A stretch of DNA of 45,030 nucleotides from Bryobacteraceae bacterium (lineage in GTDB: Bacteria > Acidobacteriota > Terriglobia > Bryobacterales > Bryobacteraceae), in contig JAIEPW010000035.1 in NCBI GenBank assembly GCA_019748195.1, positions 1 to 45,030 on the forward strand, given 5' to 3'. The translations under genes were made by a program, and so were the position numbers. The notes beneath the pieces are model-generated. The model was not told where the DNA came from. It searched no databases and saw only the letters and a program-made list of their open reading frames with translations. Below are positions 3,208-16,228 of the stretch, piece after piece (position 1 is the first letter of the stretch; every line of letters begins with the position of its first letter).

Positions 3208-4239
3208 TTACTGGCTGAGGTCCGTCTCGGCATCTTCCTCGATTTCGAAGAGATCATGGGCCTGCCGCTTGATCCCTACCTGGTACTCAGCCAGCAGTTC
3301 GACGAGCTTCTCGCCGTTCATCAGGGCAACAGGAAGTGCGTTGGGGCGCTCGGCTTCCCGTTTGGCCCCACTGCTGAATTCGCTCGTGGTGATAATGAGA
3401 CCCTGCTCGTGCGTGCCCAGGCTGCCGCGAACCTGCTGAACCACGGGCGCCTGGACGTGGTTCTTCGATTTCCACCGCTTCACCTGCACGGCCATCTGCG
3501 TCCGAATGACGTCACCCACCACCAGAGTCCCTCTGACATCAATGCCGCCGTCCTGGCTGCGCCGGGTCACCTCAACGCCTTCAAAGCCGAGCTCCGCGAG
3601 TAACCGCCCAATCAGATCCTCGAACTCGCCCGGATCCATCTTAAGAAGGTGCGCGTGAAGCCTCTGGCGTACTCGTTTGTTGTGCTGCTCGATCTCGAAG
3701 GCCAGCCCCCGCCCCATCCATCGGCTCAGACCGAAGAACCCTTGTCCGTGTTGAACGAAGCGGGGCAGCTTCCCACGGTTCTTGTCGCGCCGGATCTCGG
3801 TGATCAGTTGCGAGTACATGCTGGCCTGAGGCGTTTTGCCGCTTGTAGAGATCCATCCCTGCTGGAGCGCCTTCGCGGTGATCTCGCGATAGTGCATCGG
3901 CGACTTATGGCCGTACTCGTTCAGCACACGCTCCGCGGCCTCCGTGAACGAAACACCCGCAATGCTCCCCGAACCGTTGTTTGACACGGTAGGAACTGGC
4001 TCAACAGTCTGCGCTGCTGGATTTCGAAGGGCGAAGGTGCGAGGTGCTGTTCGCACAAAAGGAGAGGCGGCACCCCTCTTCTGCATGTCGGTGCAGATTT
4101 GCGCCTCAATCGTGGCACCAGGCGTCTTCCCGTTGGTGGCCCAAAGCCGGTTCGCCAGGATCCGCTTCGTAATCTCTTTGGCGTGTAGCGGCTCTCCAGC
4201 TTCGCTGAGAACCTGAATAGCTGCTTCGCGCGCGGACAT
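3208..4239 (-). CDS. Mrr-type restriction endonuclease with two HARE-HTH domains
   Basis: A 343-residue protein. I chose the start at 4239 (MSAREAAIQVL) because GGAGAAGGGG lies just upstream; a start 20 codons earlier lacks this. Two HARE-HTH winged-helix domains (about 1-75 and 95-175) share the pattern of AA-x-VL, H-x-K/R-EI and W-x(4)-GKTP. The C-terminal Mrr_cat domain (about 205-325) has FEDLIGRLLAELGF, SQDGGIDV and VQVKRW, supplying the Asp and Gln-x-Lys of the PD-(D/E)XK site. Mrr-like enzymes cut modified DNA; HARE-HTH domains are thought to sense modified bases or local DNA state. A role against modified phage DNA is therefore likely. It has its own promoter. Confidence 0.88.
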   Translation of the reverse strand: MSAREAAIQVLSEAGEPLHAKEITKRILANRLWATNGKTPGATIEAQICTDMQKRGAASPFVRTAPRTFALRNPAAQTVEPVPTVSNNGSGSIAGVSFTEAAERVLNEYGHKSPMHYREITAKALQQGWISTSGKTPQASMYSQLITEIRRDKNRGKLPRFVQHGQGFFGLSRWMGRGLAFEIEQHNKRVRQRLHAHLLKMDPGEFEDLIGRLLAELGFEGVEVTRRSQDGGIDVRGTLVVGDVIRTQMAVQVKRWKSKNHVQAPVVQQVRGSLGTHEQGLIITTSEFSSGAKREAERPNALPVALMNGEKLVELLAEYQVGIKRQAHDLFEIEEDAETDLSQ

Positions 4240-4279
4240 CGGAATCCCCTTCTCCGTCTTTGACTTACCGCAATTCGCG

Positions 4280-4309
4280 ATTATAGCCGACCTTAACAAC
4301 CGCTGTAAT
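4280..4309 (-). promoter_or_regulatory. Promoter of the Mrr-type gene
   Basis: On the minus strand, ATTACA (4304-4309) and a perfect TATAAT (4280-4285) are spaced 18 bases. The predicted start near 4273 leaves a leader of about 34 bases carrying the purine-rich ribosome site. An inverted repeat CCGCT...AGCGG (4300-4320) spans the -35 box and could be an operator. Confidence 0.6.
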
Positions 4310-4397
4310 GTAATAAGCGGGGTGCTTCTCCCTCACCGGTACATGTCCCTGGAATAGTGGTGTCCGCCGACCCGATTCCTTGGTCTACTCTTGATGG

Positions 4398-4615
4398 ATG
4401 AGCTTCAGACGGAAGGACGGAAAACGCATCTTCTCTTCCGAGCAACGCGGGATTTTGTAGATCGGTAAGAAGCTCTGCGCTTCCTGCCGACGGCCGCTCA
4501 TCTGGGAGAACTCACCGTGGATCACCTCCTGGCCCATTCCAAGGGAGGCGCCACATCGCTGAAGGACGCGCAGTTGATGTGCATAAGCTCCAACAGCAAG
4601 AAAGGGGCCCGGTAA
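4398..4615 (+). pseudogene. Decayed HNH endonuclease fragment
   Basis: The plus strand reads MSFRRKDGKRIFSSEQRGIL, then a TAG stop (4458-4460), then IGKKLCASCRRPLIWE in the same frame. It continues in another frame as LTVDHLLAHSKGG...AQLMCISSNSKKGAR and stops at 4613-4615. The pieces match the HNH layout (CxxC, then VDH and SKGG, then a C-x2-S/C-N region) found alone or at the end of DUF262-type proteins. With one nonsense codon, one frameshift near 4506-4517 and a Cys-to-Ser change in the second zinc pair, it is almost certainly inactive. Confidence 0.7.
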
Positions 4616-4619
4616 TCAG

Positions 4620-5879
4620 CTACTCTTTCGATCGCCGCCGCATTGACATCAGGATGAATGCGCCAGCTTCAGGCGAGAGCCGCTTGAGTGCCGCGCGGTA
4701 GCCCTCCTTTTCGTCCGGTTCTTCCCTCCGCCGTAGCCCGGTCACCCGATGCCAAGGGAGGTGCTCGGGTGGGACCAACTCCAGCGCCTCAAAACGGTGC
4801 GCGTACTCGCCTTGAGGCTTGATCTCTTGTTCCCGGTCGAAGATCGGTTCGAACGCGGGCCTCGCCCTCTCGAAAAGGTACTCGAAGTCGCCACGGACAT
4901 CCCGGTAGGCCTTCACACGTACCTGTTGCATGTCGCTCGCCGGACGAGGCCTGAACGGTCGCGGTGCCCGGCGGAGGATGGGCCTGACACCATCAATGTG
5001 CCATGAAGCTTCCAACTCCCGTCCGCCACGATCGTCTTCGACGCCAATAGTCTTGCACCAGATGGACGTCTTCGCCTGGCTTAGCGTGCCAAGCGCCTGA
5101 AATGGCGACGCCGGCAGTGTATCAAAGACGTACAGGTGCACCTCGGCAGAAAGGGACTGCACCTTCCCTATTGCGGCCGGGAGTTCGAAGTAGAGAACAT
5201 CGCCGGAGTTCGGCAAGCCTTGGCCGCCGTCCTCAGCAAGAATGATAATTGTCTTCTTGTTCTCGCCATCGCGGGGATAGTCGTCGAACTTGTCGGCCAA
5301 TCCCTCCATGAACTGCCCTGCCCACCAGGCGTACGCATCGCGCAGCGCCGGATCGTACTGGACGGACTCCGAGACCGCCGAGCTGATGTGCTGACGGATA
5401 TCCGCAAATGGAGCTGCGTCGCCCGTGCCTTCCATAAGCACACCCGCCTCGCCGTTCAGACCACAGAGCGCGAATCCAGTCAAATTATGCGATCCGACGA
5501 ATGCGGCGGATGTTCCGTCCGGCCTATCGAACAAGTACACCTTGCTGTGGAGCATGGGGTGGTAGCGATAGAAGGGGTGTTTCGCCTTCGCTCCCGTCTG
5601 CCGGCTGTGACCGAGATGGACGCGTAAGCGGTCCGGCGGCACGCCCAGGGCGAGCAGTTGGTCGAAGGCATCGAACGCGCGCCACGTGCCAGCCCCGATG
5701 ACCAGATTGGTCAGCTTCTGCGGATTACTCCGGATCGGCGCGAGAATGGCATCAATTCCCTCGACTGTCATAAAGCCGGCGAGGAGTGCCGCGTTGGCAC
5801 TACCGAGATACGCTCCGCTCAGCAGCGTTGCGATCTCCCGTCGTGGGGTGTCATAGATGAATCGGACAGCTAGGCTCAT
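4620..5879 (-). CDS. Phospholipase D-family protein (PLD-like nuclease)
   Basis: A 419-residue protein. About residues 110-140 hold an HxK(x)4D motif (HSKVYLFD) followed by GSHNLT, the PLD signature. Only one clear HKD motif is visible, so it may act as a dimer, as single-motif bacterial PLD nucleases do. The C-terminal half is unrecognised. Single-HKD proteins occur next to restriction genes and as nuclease parts of defence systems. It is the last gene of the hsd operon, 24 bases after the YgjP-type peptidase gene, and probably works with it or is simply co-transcribed. Confidence 0.75.
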   Translation of the reverse strand: MSLAVRFIYDTPRREIATLLSGAYLGSANAALLAGFMTVEGIDAILAPIRSNPQKLTNLVIGAGTWRAFDAFDQLLALGVPPDRLRVHLGHSRQTGAKAKHPFYRYHPMLHSKVYLFDRPDGTSAAFVGSHNLTGFALCGLNGEAGVLMEGTGDAAPFADIRQHISSAVSESVQYDPALRDAYAWWAGQFMEGLADKFDDYPRDGENKKTIIILAEDGGQGLPNSGDVLYFELPAAIGKVQSLSAEVHLYVFDTLPASPFQALGTLSQAKTSIWCKTIGVEDDRGGRELEASWHIDGVRPILRRAPRPFRPRPASDMQQVRVKAYRDVRGDFEYLFERARPAFEPIFDREQEIKPQGEYAHRFEALELVPPEHLPWHRVTGLRRREEPDEKEGYRAALKRLSPEAGAFILMSMRRRSKE

Positions 5880-5903: not shown

Positions 5904-6616
5904 TTACGCGAGAATCTGCTCCAGCCTCTGTTTTCGCTTTTCCCAATCGCTCATCGCGCGCTTGAGAACTCGAAAATACTTCGGGCTATGACTCGGCTCA
6001 ATCCGATGACAGAGTTCGTGTGTAATGACGTAGTCGACTGCATCGGCGGGAGCTTGAATCAAACGCAGATTCAGTGAGAGACGGCCCCCACGTGACATCG
6101 ATCCCCAGCGCTTCGGCATCACCCGAATCGTCAGGCCCTGTGGGGTAACAGCCGCAGGCCGGGCGAACCTTCCCAGGCATGCGTCAATCCGTTCCAGGAA
6201 CTTTGTCCGGGCCTTTGCCTTATACCACTTGTCCAGTAGCTCTTTTGTCTGTTCGCTATTTTCTGGGTGGGTGCTCTGGATCTCAATCGCCCCGCGCATC
6301 AGCTTTACTGAATTGGACTCAGCTTTCACCACCCTGAGCCTGTACTGGCGCCCGAGATACAGATGAGTTTCTCCAGCCAAATACCGTCTCGCCGGTGTAC
6401 GCGGGTTGAACTGGTCGAAGTATCGTTGCTGTTGCAGGATCCAAGCGGCTCGCTTGCGCACTTTGGCTGCGATGCTCTCAGTGCTCGCGGAGATCGGCGC
6501 GGCAACAGACACGGTGGAGTCGGGCTCGACGGCGATCTCCAGTGTCTTCCGTGTCCCCCTTGCTACGGTGTAGCGGATGGAGTGCTTCCCGTACTCGACG
6601 CTGTACACCTCTGACT

Positions 6617-6620
<4 letters not shown>
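5904..6620 (-). CDS. YgjP-like zinc metallopeptidase (DUF45)
   Basis: A 238-residue protein with the DUF45/YgjP layout: an N-terminal beta-rich part (YSVEYGKHSIRYTVARG), a central KWYKAKARTKFLERI helix, then WGSMS and the zinc site HELCH (within YVITHELCHR) with a following SHSPKYF that supplies the third ligand. The family is a minigluzincin-type peptidase often encoded beside type I restriction genes. The substrate is unknown; turnover of HsdR, as ClpXP does in E. coli, is a speculation worth stating only as such. Its start overlaps the hsdR stop by 4 bases. Confidence 0.88.
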
Positions 6621-9828
<3,208 letters not shown>

Positions 9829-9832
<4 letters not shown>

Positions 9833-10908
9833 ATTCCCTCCACGACCGCCTGCACAAAACGCCCGATGTACTTCGCGGACTGCGCGCCGGTAAGGCCGGA
9901 CTTGGAATACTTAGCAATGCGCGTCTCGCGACCCGAGGTCTTGCTTTTCCTGAAAGCAACGACGTTGAACTTTCCGCTCGCTGATTTCTGCTGCTCGAAC
10001 CGGAATTCGGCAGTGGGGCTATGCCCCACGAATTCGCCCGATGCAGCAACAGTCCAATAGCCGGGATAGTTCAGTTTTTCCAGGTCGCGCCGCATGTCGA
10101 GCGCCGACACATACCGGTCAGCAGTATTCGGGTCCAGCGCCTTGAGTACGATGCGCCTGAGTCTACTCGGGACCCAGGCGGGGAAGTCGCCTGCCGTGAC
10201 AAGCTTGGCGTCGCAGATCGCCTGATAGTAGTTGGCTTCGCCCAACTTAACGAACTTGTCACGCAGCACACCCAGACCGACGAGCATCCGAAACAGGGTC
10301 ATCCCTGCTTGGAAAACGTCCGTTTGAGCATTAATGCCAATGTTCCTTACGATTTCCGGTGCGCAATGAATCTTGTAGATATTAGGCGGGGGCACCGGCG
10401 ACCCGTCCGCCGAAATGCCGACGATTCCGTAGTCGCCCAGCATGCCCCTGCGGCCTGGGCCCACTAGCACGTTTTCCGGCTTGACGTCGTTGTGAAAGAA
10501 ATTCTCGCCGTGCAGGTATTCCAGCCCGCGCAGAATGTCGATGCCGATGCGAACGACCTCCGGAAGTGCGATGTAGCCTGAAGGGTTCGCGAGTTTCGTG
10601 ATCGACCCTTCGGGAAGGTAGTCCATGGCAATGATCACGAGATCATTGCCAGCGATATTTACGACATCGGCCTGGTGCACACGTACCAGATTGTTGTGCA
10701 CGAGGCGATGCCCAATATGCGCTTCTCTCAGGCGCTCATGCACAGGGACGCCAGGGCGGAGGATCTTGATGGCGTAGTCATGACCGACAGCATTGTCCGT
10801 CGCGAGCCACACCTCCCCGAAGCTACCGGTGCCGATCCGGTACTTGAGCGTATACTTGTACACCTGCAGGCCCGGCAGCAGAGTGGCTATAGGGACACCA
10901 GTGCTCAT
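9829..10908 (-). CDS. Ser/Thr protein kinase embedded in the type I R-M operon
   Basis: A 359-residue soluble kinase with a full catalytic set: glycine loop GTGSFG (26-31), Lys48 in YAIKIL, Glu62, catalytic loop HNDVKPEN (Asp141, Lys143, Asn146), Mg-binding DYG (159-161) and APE-like CAPE. The usual HRD is HND, so it lacks the Arg that couples activity to activation-loop phosphorylation. No membrane segment or PASTA repeat is present. After the kinase domain (to about 280) is a short basic beta-rich tail (YWTVAASGEF...RFEQQKSASGK). It overlaps both neighbours by 4 bases, so it is translated with HsdR and the RuvC-like protein. Phosphorylation of a restriction subunit or of an invader protein is an inference. 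Confidence 0.9.
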
Positions 10909-11366
10909 ACTGACTGCGCTCCACTCCAGGCGGCGATAACGGCATCAGCCATTTTCCCGTCCCAGTACTTAGCGGAGCGGCCGACGCGTGCTTCCGCATT
11001 CTCCTTCACCGATCCGCTATTGGTGCCAAGCGATGCATAGGTCTTTACCTCGACCGGTACCTGGTGCTGCGCGCAGTAGAGCAACAGCATGGCTTCCGCG
11101 TATGAGCTTTCCCGCTTGGCCTTCGAGTCAGACTGCGTGTACTCGTTGGTCTTAATGACCACATGCGAGATGTCAGGGTTGTCGCGGAAGATGCGTTCGA
11201 TCTCCCGGTAGAGCCAACCCGACTTCTCCGCTGCGGAAATAATGCTTGCAGGATACGAAAGACGAGTCTCGCCATCGGCATTGGCAAGGACTAACGCAGT
11301 CGCGTCCTTTCGAACAAGGGCGTAGCGTGGGGAGGCGGGGTCCGACCGAAAACCTAGCACCGTCAT
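10905..11366 (-). CDS. RuvC-like (RNase H-fold) small protein
   Basis: A 153-residue protein with the alternation of a short RNase H-fold nuclease: a first strand (MTVLGFR), a strand SHVVIKTNEYT, a helix EAMLLLYCAQH, a strand VPVEVKTYASLG, and a C-terminal DGKMADAVIAAW helix. The last matches the acidic end motif of RuvC/DUF3010-type proteins. The usual first-strand Asp is not obvious, so catalysis is uncertain. It sits between hsdS and the kinase gene with 4-base overlaps on each side. It could be a nuclease, or a pseudo-enzyme adapter read by the kinase. The assignment rests on pattern only. Confidence 0.5.
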   Translation of the reverse strand: MTVLGFRSDPASPRYALVRKDATALVLANADGETRLSYPASIISAAEKSGWLYREIERIFRDNPDISHVVIKTNEYTQSDSKAKRESSYAEAMLLLYCAQHQVPVEVKTYASLGTNSGSVKENAEARVGRSAKYWDGKMADAVIAAWSGAQSV

Positions 11367-12568
11367 ACTGCACCTCCGTCAGTCTTGACGCGCCACTGGC
11401 CGGTCAGCAGTTTCTGCATGAGACCGCGCTTTTGGCGGTTCAGGGCCGCTAGATACTTCTCTTCAGCGGCGATGGCGTTTTCTGCATCATCGAGAATCGT
11501 CGAGATTCGCCGTTGTAGGTCCAAAGGTGGTAATGGAACCATCAATTCCAAGAAGTCAGACTTGCTAAGAACGCGATTCCGGCCTGCGCCACCCGGAGAG
11601 ACAATTCCGAGGAGATACGTGAAACGAGCCATACGCAACATGTGCCGTAAGTAACGCGCATCTACTTTCTCGGTCTCCGGGACAAATACCGGGAATCGAT
11701 GAGAGACCAAGCACCCATCGTGGTCGCGAGGCACAAGGGCCACCGCTCCCTCCCATGCGAATGTGATGTTGACAATTATGTCTCCCGCTTTGGCGACATA
11801 TAGAGTGTCCATCTCGACGCTCTCTGGATTCTCTACGAACCGATCGAATGTCCCTTTTCCATGGCTGCGAATACTCAAGGCACGGTACCCCGATGTCGGC
11901 TTAGGAACGGGACGAGAAACCGGCTTCAAAAAGCTCTTTATTGCGCGCTGATTGTTGGACCAATCAATGAGGTAATCTCGCAACCCTAAATATTGCTTTT
12001 CTCGCATCTGGCTTAGTCGCAAGACGTTCTCAGCCGCTTCATCCCACGTCCGTAGGATCGCGATGAGCCTCTTCTGCTCTGCAAGCGGTGGAAGGATGAC
12101 GGGGAAGTTCTTCAGTTGGCTCGAGTTGATGCTCGCAAGATTCGTGCTCTGCTTGGACGCCGATTGAAAGTAGCGCTTCCCGTGTGGTGCCGCGGCAAGA
12201 TAGGCCAAGTAGTCGGGTACCAAGAGATCGGGGTTTGGCCGAACTGCAAAAACATGGTTCTGATGCAAGCAGTTCTGGACCTCCCCGCGCCAGACCGTGC
12301 CGCGCCCCAACTTGTCGAAATCCCCGCCCTCTGTAAAGAGAACGTCGCCAATCTTCAGCCTGTAGCGCTCTGCATCCTTCTCGTCAACGACCATAGTCTT
12401 GATCTCATTCAGGTCAAGATGGCCATCCTGCACGTTCGCGACGCGCAAATAGGGCAACGAAACGCTCCGAGATGTGATTCTTTTGCCTTTGGCGAGTCCC
12501 GTCTGAACATCGGCGATCCTCGATAGTCGGGTCGTTGACCAATCGGATGGGATGTGGGATCTATTCAT
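11363..12568 (-). CDS. hsdS: Type I specificity subunit HsdS (two target-recognition domains)
   Basis: A 401-residue subunit that sets the recognition sequence. Two tandem repeats are visible, each a target-recognition domain followed by a long helix. The first opens IPSDWSTTRLSRIADVQTG and reaches LPPLAEQKRLIAILRTWDEA. The second (about 200-400) ends LPPLDLQRRISTILDDAENA with a helix and QKLLTGQWRV, a classic HsdS ending. It starts inside the truncated RhuM remnant, 83 bases after the hsdM stop. Its stop overlaps the RuvC-like start by 4 bases. Confidence 0.95.
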   Translation of the reverse strand: MNRSHIPSDWSTTRLSRIADVQTGLAKGKRITSRSVSLPYLRVANVQDGHLDLNEIKTMVVDEKDAERYRLKIGDVLFTEGGDFDKLGRGTVWRGEVQNCLHQNHVFAVRPNPDLLVPDYLAYLAAAPHGKRYFQSASKQSTNLASINSSQLKNFPVILPPLAEQKRLIAILRTWDEAAENVLRLSQMREKQYLGLRDYLIDWSNNQRAIKSFLKPVSRPVPKPTSGYRALSIRSHGKGTFDRFVENPESVEMDTLYVAKAGDIIVNITFAWEGAVALVPRDHDGCLVSHRFPVFVPETEKVDARYLRHMLRMARFTYLLGIVSPGGAGRNRVLSKSDFLELMVPLPPLDLQRRISTILDDAENAIAAEEKYLAALNRQKRGLMQKLLTGQWRVKTDGGAV

Positions 12569-12665
12569 GATTTCCTCTTCGCGCCACCGTACCCCCTTCG
12601 GCTCGCAATTGAATCATGGCCCCGCCCTCCTCGGACGTGTAGAGGATCAGTTCACCGTTCGACAT
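12561..12665 (-). pseudogene. Truncated RhuM-family N-terminus between hsdM and hsdS
   Basis: In the gap between hsdM and hsdS a 34-codon frame reads MSNGELILYTSEEGGAMIQL and then RAEGGTV, the start of RhuM-family proteins, which often sit between hsdM and hsdS. After GGTV it departs into ARRGNHE and stops. The ATG lies inside the hsdM 3' end, and the stop lies beyond the hsdS ATG. The frame bridges the two genes and may keep translation coupled even though the RhuM function is lost. A deletion joined the RhuM start to the hsdS start. Confidence 0.75.
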
Positions 12666-14175
12666 GGATGCCCAACTCCTTCAGGTAACCGGTCATGCGA
12701 CTGCGTACTTCCGTAAGGTCGTTCTCCAATCGATTGATCTCCTTCTGTAGCCCTGCGACGTCGACCTCCTCTTCGGGTTCGAAGGTGTCCACGTACCGGG
12801 GAATGTTGAGGTTGTACTCGTTCTCCTGGATCTCCGCAGGGGAGGCGAGGTGCGAGTACTTGTCCAGTTCGGCGCGCGTGCGGTACGTGTCGATGACCTT
12901 TTGAATGTGCTCGTCGGTCATGAGGTTCTGCGTCTTACCCGGCGTGAACTCCTTACTAGAGTCGATGAAAAGGATGTCCTTGCGGGCCTCGTTCGAGCCG
13001 CCCTGCTCGCGAGAGCGGTCGAAGACCAGGATGGCGACAGGTATACCCGTGGTCGTGAAGAGATTGGCGGGCAGGCCGACTACAGCGTCGAGCAAATTCT
13101 CCTCGATGAGGGCCTGGCGGATCTTGCCTTCGCTGCCACCGCGGAAGAGGACACCATGTGGAACGATCACAGCCACCCGGCCACTCCGCGGCCGCGCTAT
13201 CTCGATCATGTGAGAGATGAATCCGTAGTCGCCTTTGGACTTCGGAGGAATGCCCCGCCAGAAGCGTTTGTGCTTGTCCTTTTCTGCGTTTTCCGCGCCC
13301 CACTTATCGAGTGAAAAAGGCGGATTGGCTACGACGACATCGAACTTCATCAAGCGGTCGCCTTCGATCAGGGACGGGCTGTTGAGCGTGTCGCACCACT
13401 CGATGCGGGCGGCGTCCTTGGAGTGAAGGAACATGTTCATGCGGGCCAGCGCCCACGTTGCGCCGTTAACCTCCTGACCGTAGAGCGCGTAGTTGTCCGA
13501 GCCGACCTCTTCGGCCGCGCGGATCAGCAACGAGCCGGAACCGCAGGCGGGATCGCAGATGGTGTTGCCGGGCGCCGGCCCCGCCAAACGCGCGAGGAGG
13601 CGCGAGACGGCGGCGGGCGTATAGAATTCACCGGCCTTCTTGCCCGCGTCGGAAGCGAAGCGTGAGATCAGATAGATGTAGCACTCGCCGATGATGTCTT
13701 CACTGACGCGCGAGGGACGAAGATCGAGTGCGGGCTTGGCAAAGTCCTCCAGCACGTTCTTGAGGCGGCGGTTCCGGTCTTTCACGCGGCCAAGATTCGA
13801 CTCGGAGTTGAAGTCGATATTGCGAAAGACCCCTTCGAGCTTGGCGCGGTTCTTGTCCTCGATCTTCTCGAGCGCGATATTGATGAGTTCGCCAATGTTC
13901 GCTTCATTCCGCTGGGCGTGGAGATCGTAGAAACTGCATCCCTCGGGAAGAATGAAGCGCTCACGCTCAAGGCGTCGGCGCATCCGTACATCGTCGTTTC
14001 CGTACTGCCGGCGATAGTTCGCGACGTGGTCATTCCAGAGGTCGGAGATGTACTTCAGGAACAGCATCACCAGGATGTAGTCCTTGTATTGTGCCGGGTC
14101 CACAGCTCCACGGAATGTGTCGCATGCCGCCCATGCTGCCTGATTGATTTGGCTCTGAGTGAGTTGATCGGTCAT
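12652..14175 (-). CDS. hsdM: Type I modification methylase HsdM
   Basis: A 507-residue adenine-N6 methyltransferase subunit. The HsdM N-terminal helical domain (1-150) precedes the catalytic domain with SAM motif DPACGSG (208-214) and motif IV NPPF (284-287). FYTPAAVSRLLA comes just before motif I, as in the family. The C-terminus (EINRLENDLTEVRSRMTGYL) is a coiled coil for HsdS contact. With HsdS it methylates the host site and forms the core to which HsdR binds. It overlaps the half-HsdS stop by 4 bases. Confidence 0.96.
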   Translation of the reverse strand: MTDQLTQSQINQAAWAACDTFRGAVDPAQYKDYILVMLFLKYISDLWNDHVANYRRQYGNDDVRMRRRLERERFILPEGCSFYDLHAQRNEANIGELINIALEKIEDKNRAKLEGVFRNIDFNSESNLGRVKDRNRRLKNVLEDFAKPALDLRPSRVSEDIIGECYIYLISRFASDAGKKAGEFYTPAAVSRLLARLAGPAPGNTICDPACGSGSLLIRAAEEVGSDNYALYGQEVNGATWALARMNMFLHSKDAARIEWCDTLNSPSLIEGDRLMKFDVVVANPPFSLDKWGAENAEKDKHKRFWRGIPPKSKGDYGFISHMIEIARPRSGRVAVIVPHGVLFRGGSEGKIRQALIEENLLDAVVGLPANLFTTTGIPVAILVFDRSREQGGSNEARKDILFIDSSKEFTPGKTQNLMTDEHIQKVIDTYRTRAELDKYSHLASPAEIQENEYNLNIPRYVDTFEPEEEVDVAGLQKEINRLENDLTEVRSRMTGYLKELGIHVER

Positions 14176-14777
14176 TTCTTTATCGTTTCCTTTCGGGTAG
14201 CTGCAGCGCGTTTCGAAGCGCGCTCTACGAGCATTCGGCGAATCAGTTCGTGCCGCTTGAGCGAGAGTTGGTCTGCGAGATCGCGCTCCTGCTCGGCCAG
14301 AGCGGCAATTTGCAGAATTCTTTCCTGCGTATCGAGGCCGGGAACTGCGATTTCCAAGTTCTCAAGGCTGGAGCGGGAGACCATCCGCAGGCTAGTACCC
14401 TGCGCACTCTCCTCGAAGTAGCGCTGGGCCGGTTCCTGATTAATGGCCCAGGCCAGATAGGCGCCGGAGAGGACTTGCGGATCAGGTCGAAGAATCATCA
14501 GCGGCAAGACCGCTAGCGCCGGCAGCGGGAGAGGTGTATCGATCACCGCCGCAGACATGCTCGCGCTGCGGGAGCGAAACACGACATCCCCAGCGCCGAC
14601 CAGATACTTCTCCGGTATAGGGTCAAGGTAGATGCGCGTTAAGTTGTTGAAATTAATAGTTCCGTTGGCAGCTACATCCCGCAATTGCAGCGCTAAGATG
14701 TTGCCGTGCTCAGCGGGATCCAATCTTCCGCGGGCGGTAAAGCCGGTCTGGATCGTGCATGCCCGGGCCAGCCTCAT
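14172..14777 (-). CDS. Half-length HsdS-like specificity protein (single TRD)
   Basis: A 201-residue protein with one target-recognition domain (MRLARACTIQTGFTARG, then LALQLRDV, GDVVFRSR and YLAWAINQEPAQRYFEESAQ) and one conserved helix (VPGLDTQERILQIAALAEQE). It ends in a basic tail. Full HsdS has two such units; half subunits can dimerise and give a symmetric recognition site. Being the first gene of the operon, with a full HsdS downstream, it could give the methylase a second specificity. The start follows the promoter by about 20 bases. It could also be an old duplicated fragment, but it shows no internal break. Confidence 0.75.
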   Translation of the reverse strand: MRLARACTIQTGFTARGRLDPAEHGNILALQLRDVAANGTINFNNLTRIYLDPIPEKYLVGAGDVVFRSRSASMSAAVIDTPLPLPALAVLPLMILRPDPQVLSGAYLAWAINQEPAQRYFEESAQGTSLRMVSRSSLENLEIAVPGLDTQERILQIAALAEQERDLADQLSLKRHELIRRMLVERASKRAAATRKETIKK

Positions 14778-14803: not shown

Positions 14804-14833
14804 ATCATATTCCACCGCATAATCGCGTGTCAA
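14804..14833 (-). promoter_or_regulatory. Strong sigma70-like promoter of the hsd operon
   Basis: On the minus strand TTGACA (14828-14833, 6/6) and TATGAT (14804-14809, 5/6) are spaced 18 bases. Transcription would begin near 14797, only about 20 bases before the half-HsdS ATG at 14777. It is the only clear promoter upstream of the nine-gene minus-strand run. Confidence 0.75.
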
Positions 14834-15061
14834 CAGAAAAAACTCTGTAGCCGTGTGTACAGACGTTCTGCTACGCTTATTTGCAGCGCAGGTCTGCTCG
14901 TTGACCGGGACTGATCTGCGCTGTGCAGGAGATCGTCGCTCAGGTGCCCTGCCGGCTGCGGTTCCTTCCGTGGACGAACAGGGCCGTTGATAAATGACGT
15001 GTTTCCGGCGCAAAGCAAGCACCAGGAACGCAGAGTAGAAGGAGGAGCCGCCAAGGTCAAT

Positions 15062-16228
15062 ATGCGGATCGAATACAATCCACGCAAATTCTTGCTTCTC
15101 ATTCCGATCGCGATGCTACGGCAGTACTTCGAGCGGCGGGGTATGCTTGGCGATCTGGCGTGGGATGAGCTGAACGATAAGGACCACGAGGTCGTCTACG
15201 CCGCATGGCAAGCGCTGCCGCAGCGATCACGGGACTCGGTCGGAGTCGACTTCCAAAATGTTGCGGGGCTCGCGACCAAGCAGGGAATCCAGATCATCAT
15301 CGAAGAGGGAAAGTTCCACGGTGTGGACTTGGTGCCTGAGCTCGTGGTCCACCGAAGCCACAGTGAGAAGGCTTTCCATGTCCTGCTCAATCACCCGCGA
15401 GTCTTCCGCGTTGCCAGCCAGTTCAACTACGCTGACAACCTCACCCGCTACTGGCATCCTCGCCACGATTTGCCGGCAAAGCCGCCGAACCTCGGCCAAG
15501 AAGCGCGGACGGCACTGAAGCAGGCCGTCTCCGATTACTACGTTCAGAATCAGGGACGCGGCCAGTACAGCGATCTCGACGTGTACCTCCGGCACGACAC
15601 CGTCCACTACTTCATGGTGTACCTATCGGATTATCCGGACACCTTCGTCGGCTACAACGACGACGGCGCACTGGACCGTCACCCCCAGACGCCAGCGTTT
15701 GACGTTGTCTTTCGGTACGACGAGAGTTGTGGGCATCTGGACCTCTATGCCGAGGGTCCGCGGCAACTTCGGCGCGATCTGGAGGCCATCTTCGGAAAAA
15801 CTGCTCTTGCAGAAGACCTCTCACTGGAGCCGCCGCCTGGCGCGGCTTTCAAACTCGACCATCTGAAGGACCCGACATTTGAATTCGCCACAGAGGCCGC
15901 AGATGGCATATTCAATGTGCAGGTTCGCACCATGCAGTTGTCGGTGCCGGATAAGAAGTCCGGGCGGATCACTTTTGAATTGCTGCCGTATTCGAACGGC
16001 GGCAACATCCACGATCTGATCGCCGACGCACTGAACCAGGTCAACTGGCAAATGGAGGACCTCCGGGTTGATCAGGTTAGGTTGAAGGTTACTTTCCTCC
16101 ATGGGAAGCCACGCGCCAAGACGGTGACGTTCAACATCTCGCCGTATTCTTGTCCGCTGAAAGACCATGTGCCAGAGCACGTCACGATCCGGCGCTGCCT
16201 CAAGAAATGGCAGATCGAAAGTGAGTGA
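15062..16228 (+). CDS. Hypothetical protein, first of an unrecognised two-gene unit
   Basis: A 388-residue soluble protein from the internal ATG at 15062 (MRIEYNPRKFLLLIPI), preceded by GGAGGAG about 17 bases upstream. A start 25 codons earlier is possible. I recognise no domain. The N-terminal part is helical (LRQYFERRGMLGDLAWDEL); the middle is rich in aromatic and His residues (SQFNYADNLTRYWHPRHD, YLRHDTVHYFMVYLSDYPDT); the C-terminus is beta-rich (ITFELLPYSNGGNIHDLIAD). No membrane segment is seen. It is divergent from the hsd operon, and the next gene overlaps its end by 8 bases, so the two are probably made together. Confidence 0.7.
   Translation: MRIEYNPRKFLLLIPIAMLRQYFERRGMLGDLAWDELNDKDHEVVYAAWQALPQRSRDSVGVDFQNVAGLATKQGIQIIIEEGKFHGVDLVPELVVHRSHSEKAFHVLLNHPRVFRVASQFNYADNLTRYWHPRHDLPAKPPNLGQEARTALKQAVSDYYVQNQGRGQYSDLDVYLRHDTVHYFMVYLSDYPDTFVGYNDDGALDRHPQTPAFDVVFRYDESCGHLDLYAEGPRQLRRDLEAIFGKTALAEDLSLEPPPGAAFKLDHLKDPTFEFATEAADGIFNVQVRTMQLSVPDKKSGRITFELLPYSNGGNIHDLIADALNQVNWQMEDLRVDQVRLKVTFLHGKPRAKTVTFNISPYSCPLKDHVPEHVTIRRCLKKWQIESE

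Follow-up and report, generated by a model that had tools for sequence, protein, structure and literature searches.

A close described parallel to the locus analysed here is the type Ic operon EcoprrI, in which the gene order is hsdM-hsdS-prrC-hsdR (PMC3014915), and two other papers likewise describe a prrC gene embedded in a restriction-modification (RM) operon (PMC3874165, PMC12707154). In C. jejuni, rlo genes have been described as inserts within type I loci, and the relatives of RloC mostly lack a linkage to RM genes (PMC2610378). It has been proposed that type I RM loci couple immunity to genes for suicide or dormancy (PMC3506569), and the same has been proposed for HEPN and RhuM genes (PMC3710099). 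Protein kinases also have a place in phage defence: Stk of 933W, prophage-borne and termed a tyrosine kinase, is activated by infection with phage HK97 and is involved in phage exclusion (PMC3681748), Stk2 of Staphylococcus is an abortive-infection kinase that defends against phages (PMC12926258), and the PglW kinase of BREX type 2 stands beside DNA-modification defence (PMC12839542). These statements, and the comparisons built on them below, follow excerpts of the cited papers.

The window, a 45,030-nucleotide stretch of a Bryobacteraceae bacterium contig, contains a type I RM operon in which hsdS and hsdR are separated by two genes, one for a RuvC-like protein of 153 aa that we name RvcL and one for a Ser/Thr kinase. 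The locus thus shares with EcoprrI the placement of extra coding capacity between hsdS and hsdR, where PrrC serves as a second line of defence. The cargo is different: PrrC is an ABC-ATPase anticodon nuclease, whereas here, as assessed with Pfam and PADLOC, it is a predicted RuvC-fold protein plus a kinase. PrrC is moreover reported to be silenced by the RM complex, and guardians of its kind are freed from the Hsd complex by an anti-restriction protein, a mode of control that would be hypothetical for the RvcL-kinase pair.

Results

A RuvC-like gene and a kinase gene within a type I operon

The operon and its associated features, all on the minus strand, are as follows, with the supporting evidence in brackets.

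14804..14833, minus strand: promoter-like site TTGACA-18-TATGAT, directly upstream of the operon (consensus scan, 11/12 matches)
14172..14777, minus strand: half-hsdS, 201 aa, hsdS-like, first gene of the operon (PADLOC Specificity_I, E 8.5e-19)
12652..14175, minus strand: hsdM, type I methyltransferase (PF02384, E 4.8e-100; TIGR00497 above cut-off)
11363..12568, minus strand: hsdS, specificity subunit (PF01420, E 1.9e-21)
10905..11366, minus strand: RvcL, 153 aa, RuvC-like (AlphaFold2, Foldseek, VIA-align 2, alignments)
9829..10908, minus strand: Ser/Thr kinase, 359 aa, with a small C-terminal domain at about residues 280-359 (PF00069, E 1.6e-30)
6617..9832, minus strand: hsdR, type I restriction subunit (TIGR00348, 461.6 bits, above cut-off; PF04313, PF18766)
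5904..6620, minus strand: YgjP/SprT-like metallopeptidase (PF01863, E 1.6e-53)

Read along the minus strand, the order is half-hsdS, hsdM, hsdS, RvcL, kinase, hsdR and the YgjP/SprT-like gene. Neighbouring genes overlap by 4 bp at five of the six junctions (half-hsdS/hsdM, hsdS/RvcL, RvcL/kinase, kinase/hsdR and hsdR/YgjP), the sole non-overlapping junction being that of hsdM and hsdS, at a distance of 83 bp. HsdM, HsdS and HsdR all score above curated Pfam and NCBIfam cut-offs, which identifies the operon as a type I RM system. The original prediction, made from the sequence of this region, had described the order hsdS, RuvC-like gene, kinase, hsdR with three 4-bp overlaps; the minus-strand open reading frames confirm it, and we regard that observation as practically certain. 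The promoter consensus scan of the region returns 5 sites against 3.9 expected and lends the site at 14804..14833 weak support.

Two further features recur in related operons. A half-size hsdS upstream of hsdM is present in most of the operons seen in lineages A and B, defined below, and a single RM system with both a half-hsdS and an hsdS may use two specificity proteins. The YgjP/SprT-like gene lies 3' of hsdR, usually with a short overlap, in the surveyed operons with a readable hsdR end, and is constant next to a variable cargo slot.

By gene content, a large part of the window resembles a prophage. Eight of ten proteins match in a PHROG scan of the window, and positions 1181-37987 encode an integrase, a Sak4-like annealing protein, an exonuclease V/helicase, a primase, a ParB/DNA methyltransferase, a terminase large subunit and a portal protein. 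The type I operon adjoins the integrase end of this region and, since the window is prophage-like, is probably carried as prophage cargo. Downstream on the same strand, at 3208-5879, are an Mrr-type restriction gene (PDC-S02) and a gene whose weak PLD/NgoFVII-like match falls short of the Pfam cut-offs, both candidates for further defence genes. Divergent from the operon, at 14987-16228, is a gene for a 413-aa protein whose sole match is to a PHROG without known function (E 6e-17); a weak homologue of it (27% over 184 aa) flanks the operon in viral contig L023.

RvcL has a predicted RuvC fold and an altered catalytic site

Structure modelling of the 153-aa protein, proposed with the original prediction, yields an AlphaFold2 model (12 sequences, pLDDT 90.3) with a RuvC fold over the full length. 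The best PDB matches are RuvC proteins, aligned over the full length (Foldseek, 7xhj_A, E 1.3e-10, TM 0.80), VIA-align 2 superimposes the model on RuvC with Z 18.4 over 146 residues at an rmsd of 2.5, and when RvcL and eight RuvC sequences from the window's phylum are compared as profiles, the probabilities are 94.8 (global) and 94.0 (local). We find no RvcL match in Pfam at E 1 (PF02075 included), in PADLOC or in NCBIfam, and no useful match among solved structures with RvcL as a single sequence or as a profile, while PHROGs return a weak match (E 0.064) to one PHROG of unknown function. RvcL is not the genome's housekeeping RuvC, which is encoded on another contig.

Four acids, D7, E66, D138 and D141, are essential for catalysis in E. 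coli RuvC. In the RvcL alignment D7 is replaced by R7 and D138 by K138, D141 is kept, and the position of E66 falls in a gapped stretch at about residues 70-75, where the facing residue is K72 or E75. R7, K72, E75 and D141 are invariant in 22/22 rows and K138 is found in 21/22, so that two of the four catalytic acids of RuvC are basic residues in RvcL. Because these two metal-binding acids are replaced by conserved basic residues, resolvase activity is unlikely, and RvcL is very probably nuclease-dead. It shares with the RuvC resolvase its predicted full-length fold and differs in lacking a PF02075 match and in its changed catalytic acids; TEFM, another RuvC-fold protein, is not known to have a nuclease role. 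The earlier label "RuvC-like" therefore holds for the predicted fold (pLDDT 90.3, Z 18.4) and, given R7 and K138, probably not for nuclease activity.

The kinase carries a C-terminal domain that accompanies RvcL

The kinase gene is complete, as originally described from Lys48, Asp141, Asn146 and DYG: residues K48, E62, H139-N140-D141, K143, N146 and D159-Y160-G161 are all present and kept in 22/22 rows. We take K48 to be the VAIK Lys, E62 the αC Glu, D141 the HxD Asp, D159 the DxG Asp and N146 the Asn of the kinase motif. With the motif set of an active kinase complete, activity is predicted from sequence. HND and DYG are marks of the whole kinase subfamily (22/22 rows), and the constitutive activity that the original prediction suggested from HND is a speculative trait.

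The best PADLOC match of the kinase is mad6 (E 2.3e-36), PD-T4-6 also matches (E 2.3e-35), and the kinase of phage contig L025 is 31% identical to phage stk genes; by these comparisons, the kin of the kinase domain include anti-phage kinases. The kinase shares its protein kinase fold with Stk, Stk2 and PD-T4-6, of which Stk and PD-T4-6 count as single-gene anti-phage kinases, and differs from them in that the excerpts describing these kinases name no RvcL partner and in a C-terminal domain seen here only with RvcL, bar one decayed locus. Like MADS and BREX type 2, the locus encodes a kinase together with a DNA methyltransferase and, like MADS, a specificity subunit (judged by the model names MAD6 kinase, MAD2 methylase and MAD5 specificity), whereas its RM genes make up an ordinary type I system, hsdR included. 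Membership of either system is rejected, as scores fall far under the NCBIfam equivalog cut-offs (MAD6, 94.4 bits against 460; MAD2, 54.6 against 720; MAD5, 29.6 against 400; PglW, 31.5 against 990); mad1, 3, 4, 7 and 8 are absent from the matches listed for ten operon-region proteins, for four of which these are the best 25 only. The original prediction held kinase control of restriction, or a phosphorylation-based second layer of defence, to be new in this setting; kinases next to DNA-modification defence genes have precedents in PglW of BREX type 2 (PMC12839542) and in the MAD6 models of PADLOC and NCBIfam.

The C-terminal 80 residues of the kinase form a confidently predicted small domain (pLDDT 80-96 per 10-residue block) within a whole-kinase model of middling pLDDT, 71.6. 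This domain is found in three plasmid records, the same three that carry RvcL (3/3), and in 3/238 and 4/235 genomes of two orders, search centres included. Two of these seven genome matches are the search centres and three others were known from earlier searches; RvcL adjoins the kinase in six of the seven, while the remaining match is to a decayed operon that retains only part of the kinase. Every undecayed locus seen with this kinase domain thus has RvcL adjacent. The joint occurrence of tail and RvcL suggests that the two may touch each other.

The RvcL-kinase pair occurs with and without hsd genes

We find 24 RvcL-kinase pairs, each counted once, of which 18 sit between hsdS and hsdR across two HsdR lineages, a fraction that, like the sample in the HsdR tree below, is biased by the location of most of these loci through RvcL searches. 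Lineage A comprises operons with an HsdR at least 70% identical to that of the window, window included, and lineage B those with an HsdR at least 60% identical to that of L010. The loci are grouped as follows.

Lineage A pairs, 13: window, L011, L012, L017, L022, L023, L034, L035, L108, L112, L114, L147, L148
Lineage B pairs, 5: L010, L013, L014, L016, L019
Pairs elsewhere in bacteria, without hsd genes in the contig DNA, 3: L015, L018, L021
Pairs in phage contigs, without hsd genes in the contig DNA, 3: L024, L025, L026
Decayed pairs, outside the count of 24: L020, L120

Two of these pairs, L147 and L148, stand outside the 22-row alignment and the trees. Three plasmid records with the pair were the starting point, two of which look like one and the same Methylocystis parvus plasmid; ten loci came from a genome-contig scan and five from viral-contig scans, both with exact peptide patterns, and order-wide searches added more. 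The pair is rare, with 4/397 genomes of one order positive for RvcL, search centre included, and a search among relatives of the window's genome returned 1/151, the window's genome itself. Viral contigs searched with the window RvcL alone, and a phage collection searched by tblastn with two RvcL queries, gave no useful match. L012 is an Acidobacteriota MAG, with a kinase frameshifted after residue 284, and the other named pair-bearing operons are from Pseudomonadota; in L034 a truncated hsdM lies beside an intact pair.

The search for the order hsdS, RuvC-like gene, kinase, hsdR that was proposed with the original prediction recovers 13 lineage A and five lineage B operons, and recurrence of the same gene order in both lineages rejects a chance neighbourhood. 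An order bound to this RM system, as had been supposed, is not supported: 6/24 pairs are without hsd genes in the contig DNA examined, three of them in phage contigs. Near these six, tblastn finds no hsd genes or remnants, in contigs that for L018 and L024 end 0.7-0.8 kb upstream of RvcL. The L026 contig carries primase, terminase and portal genes, L025 carries an HNH gene, and L024 and L025 share, by eye, the starts of several proteins with L026. A DUF4917 gene lies directly 3' of the kinase in L013, L015 and L016.

Both genes look to be under purifying selection in hsd-linked, lone and phage pairs, with dN/dS values of 0.035-0.136 for RvcL (ten pairwise comparisons) and 0.035-0.142 for the kinase (eight comparisons, one more being saturated and one omitted for a frameshift), several of them from comparisons with dS >1. 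We are highly confident that RvcL and the kinase form a functional pair.

The hsdS-hsdR position holds interchangeable cargo

A tblastn search of plasmids with the window HsdR yields 12 records at 60-80% identity, the best ten all at least 70%. The slots of these best ten of 12 hold TIGR04141/DUF6119 (4), Shedu plus HAD (2), Shedu plus DUF3800 (1), HAD (1), DUF3800 (1) and RvcL-kinase (1). Sampling of two orders by HsdR only, in 390 and 397 genomes, finds HsdR at E 1e-150 or better in 46/787 (26/390 and 20/397, centres included), 20 of them at 70% identity or more. In the 13 readable genome slots at HsdR ≥70% are RvcL-kinase (5), DUF3800 (3), TIGR04141/DUF6119 (3), DUF4917 (1) and nothing (1), a count that omits the centre G156 and the partial or decayed G818, G905, G680, G854, G451 and G276, and in which L111 appears to be the same record as plasmid L053. 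The decayed G680 slot contains a kinase fragment. PADLOC models of established or candidate defence genes are matched by three of the five other cargo families, namely SduA (E 7e-172), PDC-S21 (DUF4917) and PDC-S34 (HAD); at E 1e-4 PADLOC returns nothing for the commonest other cargo, DUF3800 and TIGR04141/DUF6119. Abi_2 and dGTPase genes occupy the slot in operons at a greater distance (HsdR 36-39%).

DUF4917 (SIR2-like and weakly AbiH-like; L015:11535-12617) is an independent cargo gene, found beside the pair, alone in the L109 slot and as a remnant in L021. A second variable slot, between hsdM and hsdS, holds a RhuM-like gene (PDC-S05), a GIY-YIG/DUF4357 gene (PDC-S14) or nothing, with examples at

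L051:3013-4038
L010:9912-10862

The overlaps that join the pair to its neighbours also join other cargo. In nine of nine lineage A plasmid operons with other cargo the cargo/hsdR overlap is 4 bp, and the hsdS/cargo junction of the same nine is an overlap of 4 bp in two, 1 bp in five and 8 bp in one, and a 1-bp gap in one. Where the slot is empty, in L122 and L127, an ATGA is shared by the stop of hsdS and the start of hsdR, and in L118 the last base of hsdS is the first base of hsdR. Tight overlap is therefore a property of the slot, and we do not accept 4-bp overlaps as evidence that the unit is fixed. Of the earlier argument that coupled order marks a working unit, the conserved two-gene unit is supported, and the overlaps alone are no argument for it.

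On an HsdR tree of 51 proteins, a quick tree with several long branches in which L129 is labelled empty and three more rows "empty or small", RvcL-kinase changes 13 times, at least 11 of these changes being forced by well-supported branches. Shuffled labels give a mean of 14.0 changes, with 162/500 shuffles as low as 13, and the pair is scattered over the tree about like shuffled labels. TIGR04141/DUF6119 is clustered, with 5 changes versus 8.5 in shuffles (2/500 as low), and all ten cargo labels together are somewhat clustered, with 27 changes versus a shuffled mean of 31.9 (3/200 as low), indicating exchange that is frequent and not free. Four pairs of sister operons differ in slot content, L034/L054, L121/L122, L057/L112 and L014/L129, with hsdR DNA identities of 89.8-96.1% and a match whose first base is no more than 7 bases away from where hsdR starts in the first-named operon. 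The L129 slot holds 202 bases, a probable remnant, since their beginning resembles that of the L060 DUF3800 gene.

At greater depth a branch of the pair tree (100/100) separates the lineage A pairs from the phage pairs, the lone pairs and those of lineage B, which fits a partnership of the lineage A pair with that RM lineage, and for lineage A the pair tree and the HsdR tree conflict (p-AU 7e-5 and 0.002, for groups picked after the trees were seen). Modules are swapped within one operon lineage, and deep lineages of pair and RM system have stayed together. That the hsdS-hsdR position is a cargo slot subject to swapping is a conclusion we hold with little doubt.

Discussion

We favour the reading, with a probability of roughly 0.55, that RvcL and the kinase are a self-contained two-protein anti-phage module, carried as exchangeable cargo in the hsdS-hsdR slot and here probably within a prophage. 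This reading is preferred because of the pairs outside hsd operons, the varying slot content of close relatives, the defence matches among the other cargo, the joint occurrence of kinase tail and RvcL and the anti-phage kin of the kinase, together with the prrC-like position, the proposals of coupling in type I loci and the kinase precedents. Against it count the 18/24 pairs that do sit with hsd genes, the branch that sets the lineage A pairs apart and the missing PADLOC match of the commonest other cargo. A defence role for the pair is probable, and the suggestion of a second layer of defence is thereby kept as a possible one, with slot cargo that is in part known or candidate defence (SduA, PDC-S21, PDC-S34). 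In the literature searched, open-licence papers, we find no description of a RuvC-fold/kinase pair.

In the mechanism that we envisage, RvcL is the likely sensor or latch and the kinase the likely effector. Having kept its RuvC fold and lost its nuclease site, RvcL would recognise branched or phage DNA, or else a phage protein, in the role of sensor or adaptor, and would bind the kinase, probably via the C-terminal domain, so as to keep it latent. Infection, possibly with restriction blocked, would release the kinase, which might then phosphorylate host (or phage) proteins and impose a growth stop of the kind reported for Stk of 933W and Stk2. That the kinase stops growth of the infected cell we consider an even bet, and gating of the pair by the RM complex is doubtful. 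The full proposal, in which branched phage DNA, or else the condition of the restriction complex, is read by a catalytically dead RuvC resolvase that in turn controls a kinase able to shut the infected cell down, all from a plug-in slot through which type I operons exchange entire defence modules, is a tentative one to which we give less than even odds.

The original prediction raised kinase control of restriction, in which the pair would phosphorylate HsdR, HsdM or HsdS and so act as an on/off switch of restriction, for instance once DNA has been damaged. The placement of 18/24 pairs between hsdS and hsdR and the confinement of lineage A pairs to one side of a branch (100/100) are what such control would lead one to expect, but six pairs are without hsd genes in the contig DNA examined, and the operon has very close relatives in which the slot is empty or filled with unrelated cargo. 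Kinase control is accordingly not supported as stated; it is possible and not favoured, and we judge it rather unlikely. A toxin-antitoxin-like addiction cassette, with the kinase as toxin and RvcL as antidote, would stabilise the operon or prophage and contribute little direct defence. The compact two-gene unit with its small first gene, and the presence of pairs on plasmids, in phage contigs and in a prophage-like region, would suit such a cassette, yet the company that the pair keeps in the slot, where models of known or candidate defence genes match 3/5 of the other families, makes it quite improbable. It is very improbable that RvcL is an active junction nuclease regulated by the kinase, the pair cutting branched phage DNA directly: the full-length RuvC fold (Z 18.4) and the invariant D141 and E75 are compatible with this, but the positions of RuvC D7 and D138 are R7 (22/22) and K138 (21/22).

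Where PrrC is a single effector that provides a restriction operon with its second defence, the exchangeable two-protein module extends the idea to a slot open to many effectors, and adds a pair of which we find no description, a RuvC-fold protein without a nuclease site plus a kinase. The phage-borne two-gene copies make this pair testable apart from the rest of the operon. If RvcL does sense DNA structure and gate the kinase, the pair would connect the detection of DNA with the phosphorylation of proteins as steps of one phage defence, and such a gated kinase would represent a new class of restriction-guarding immunity.
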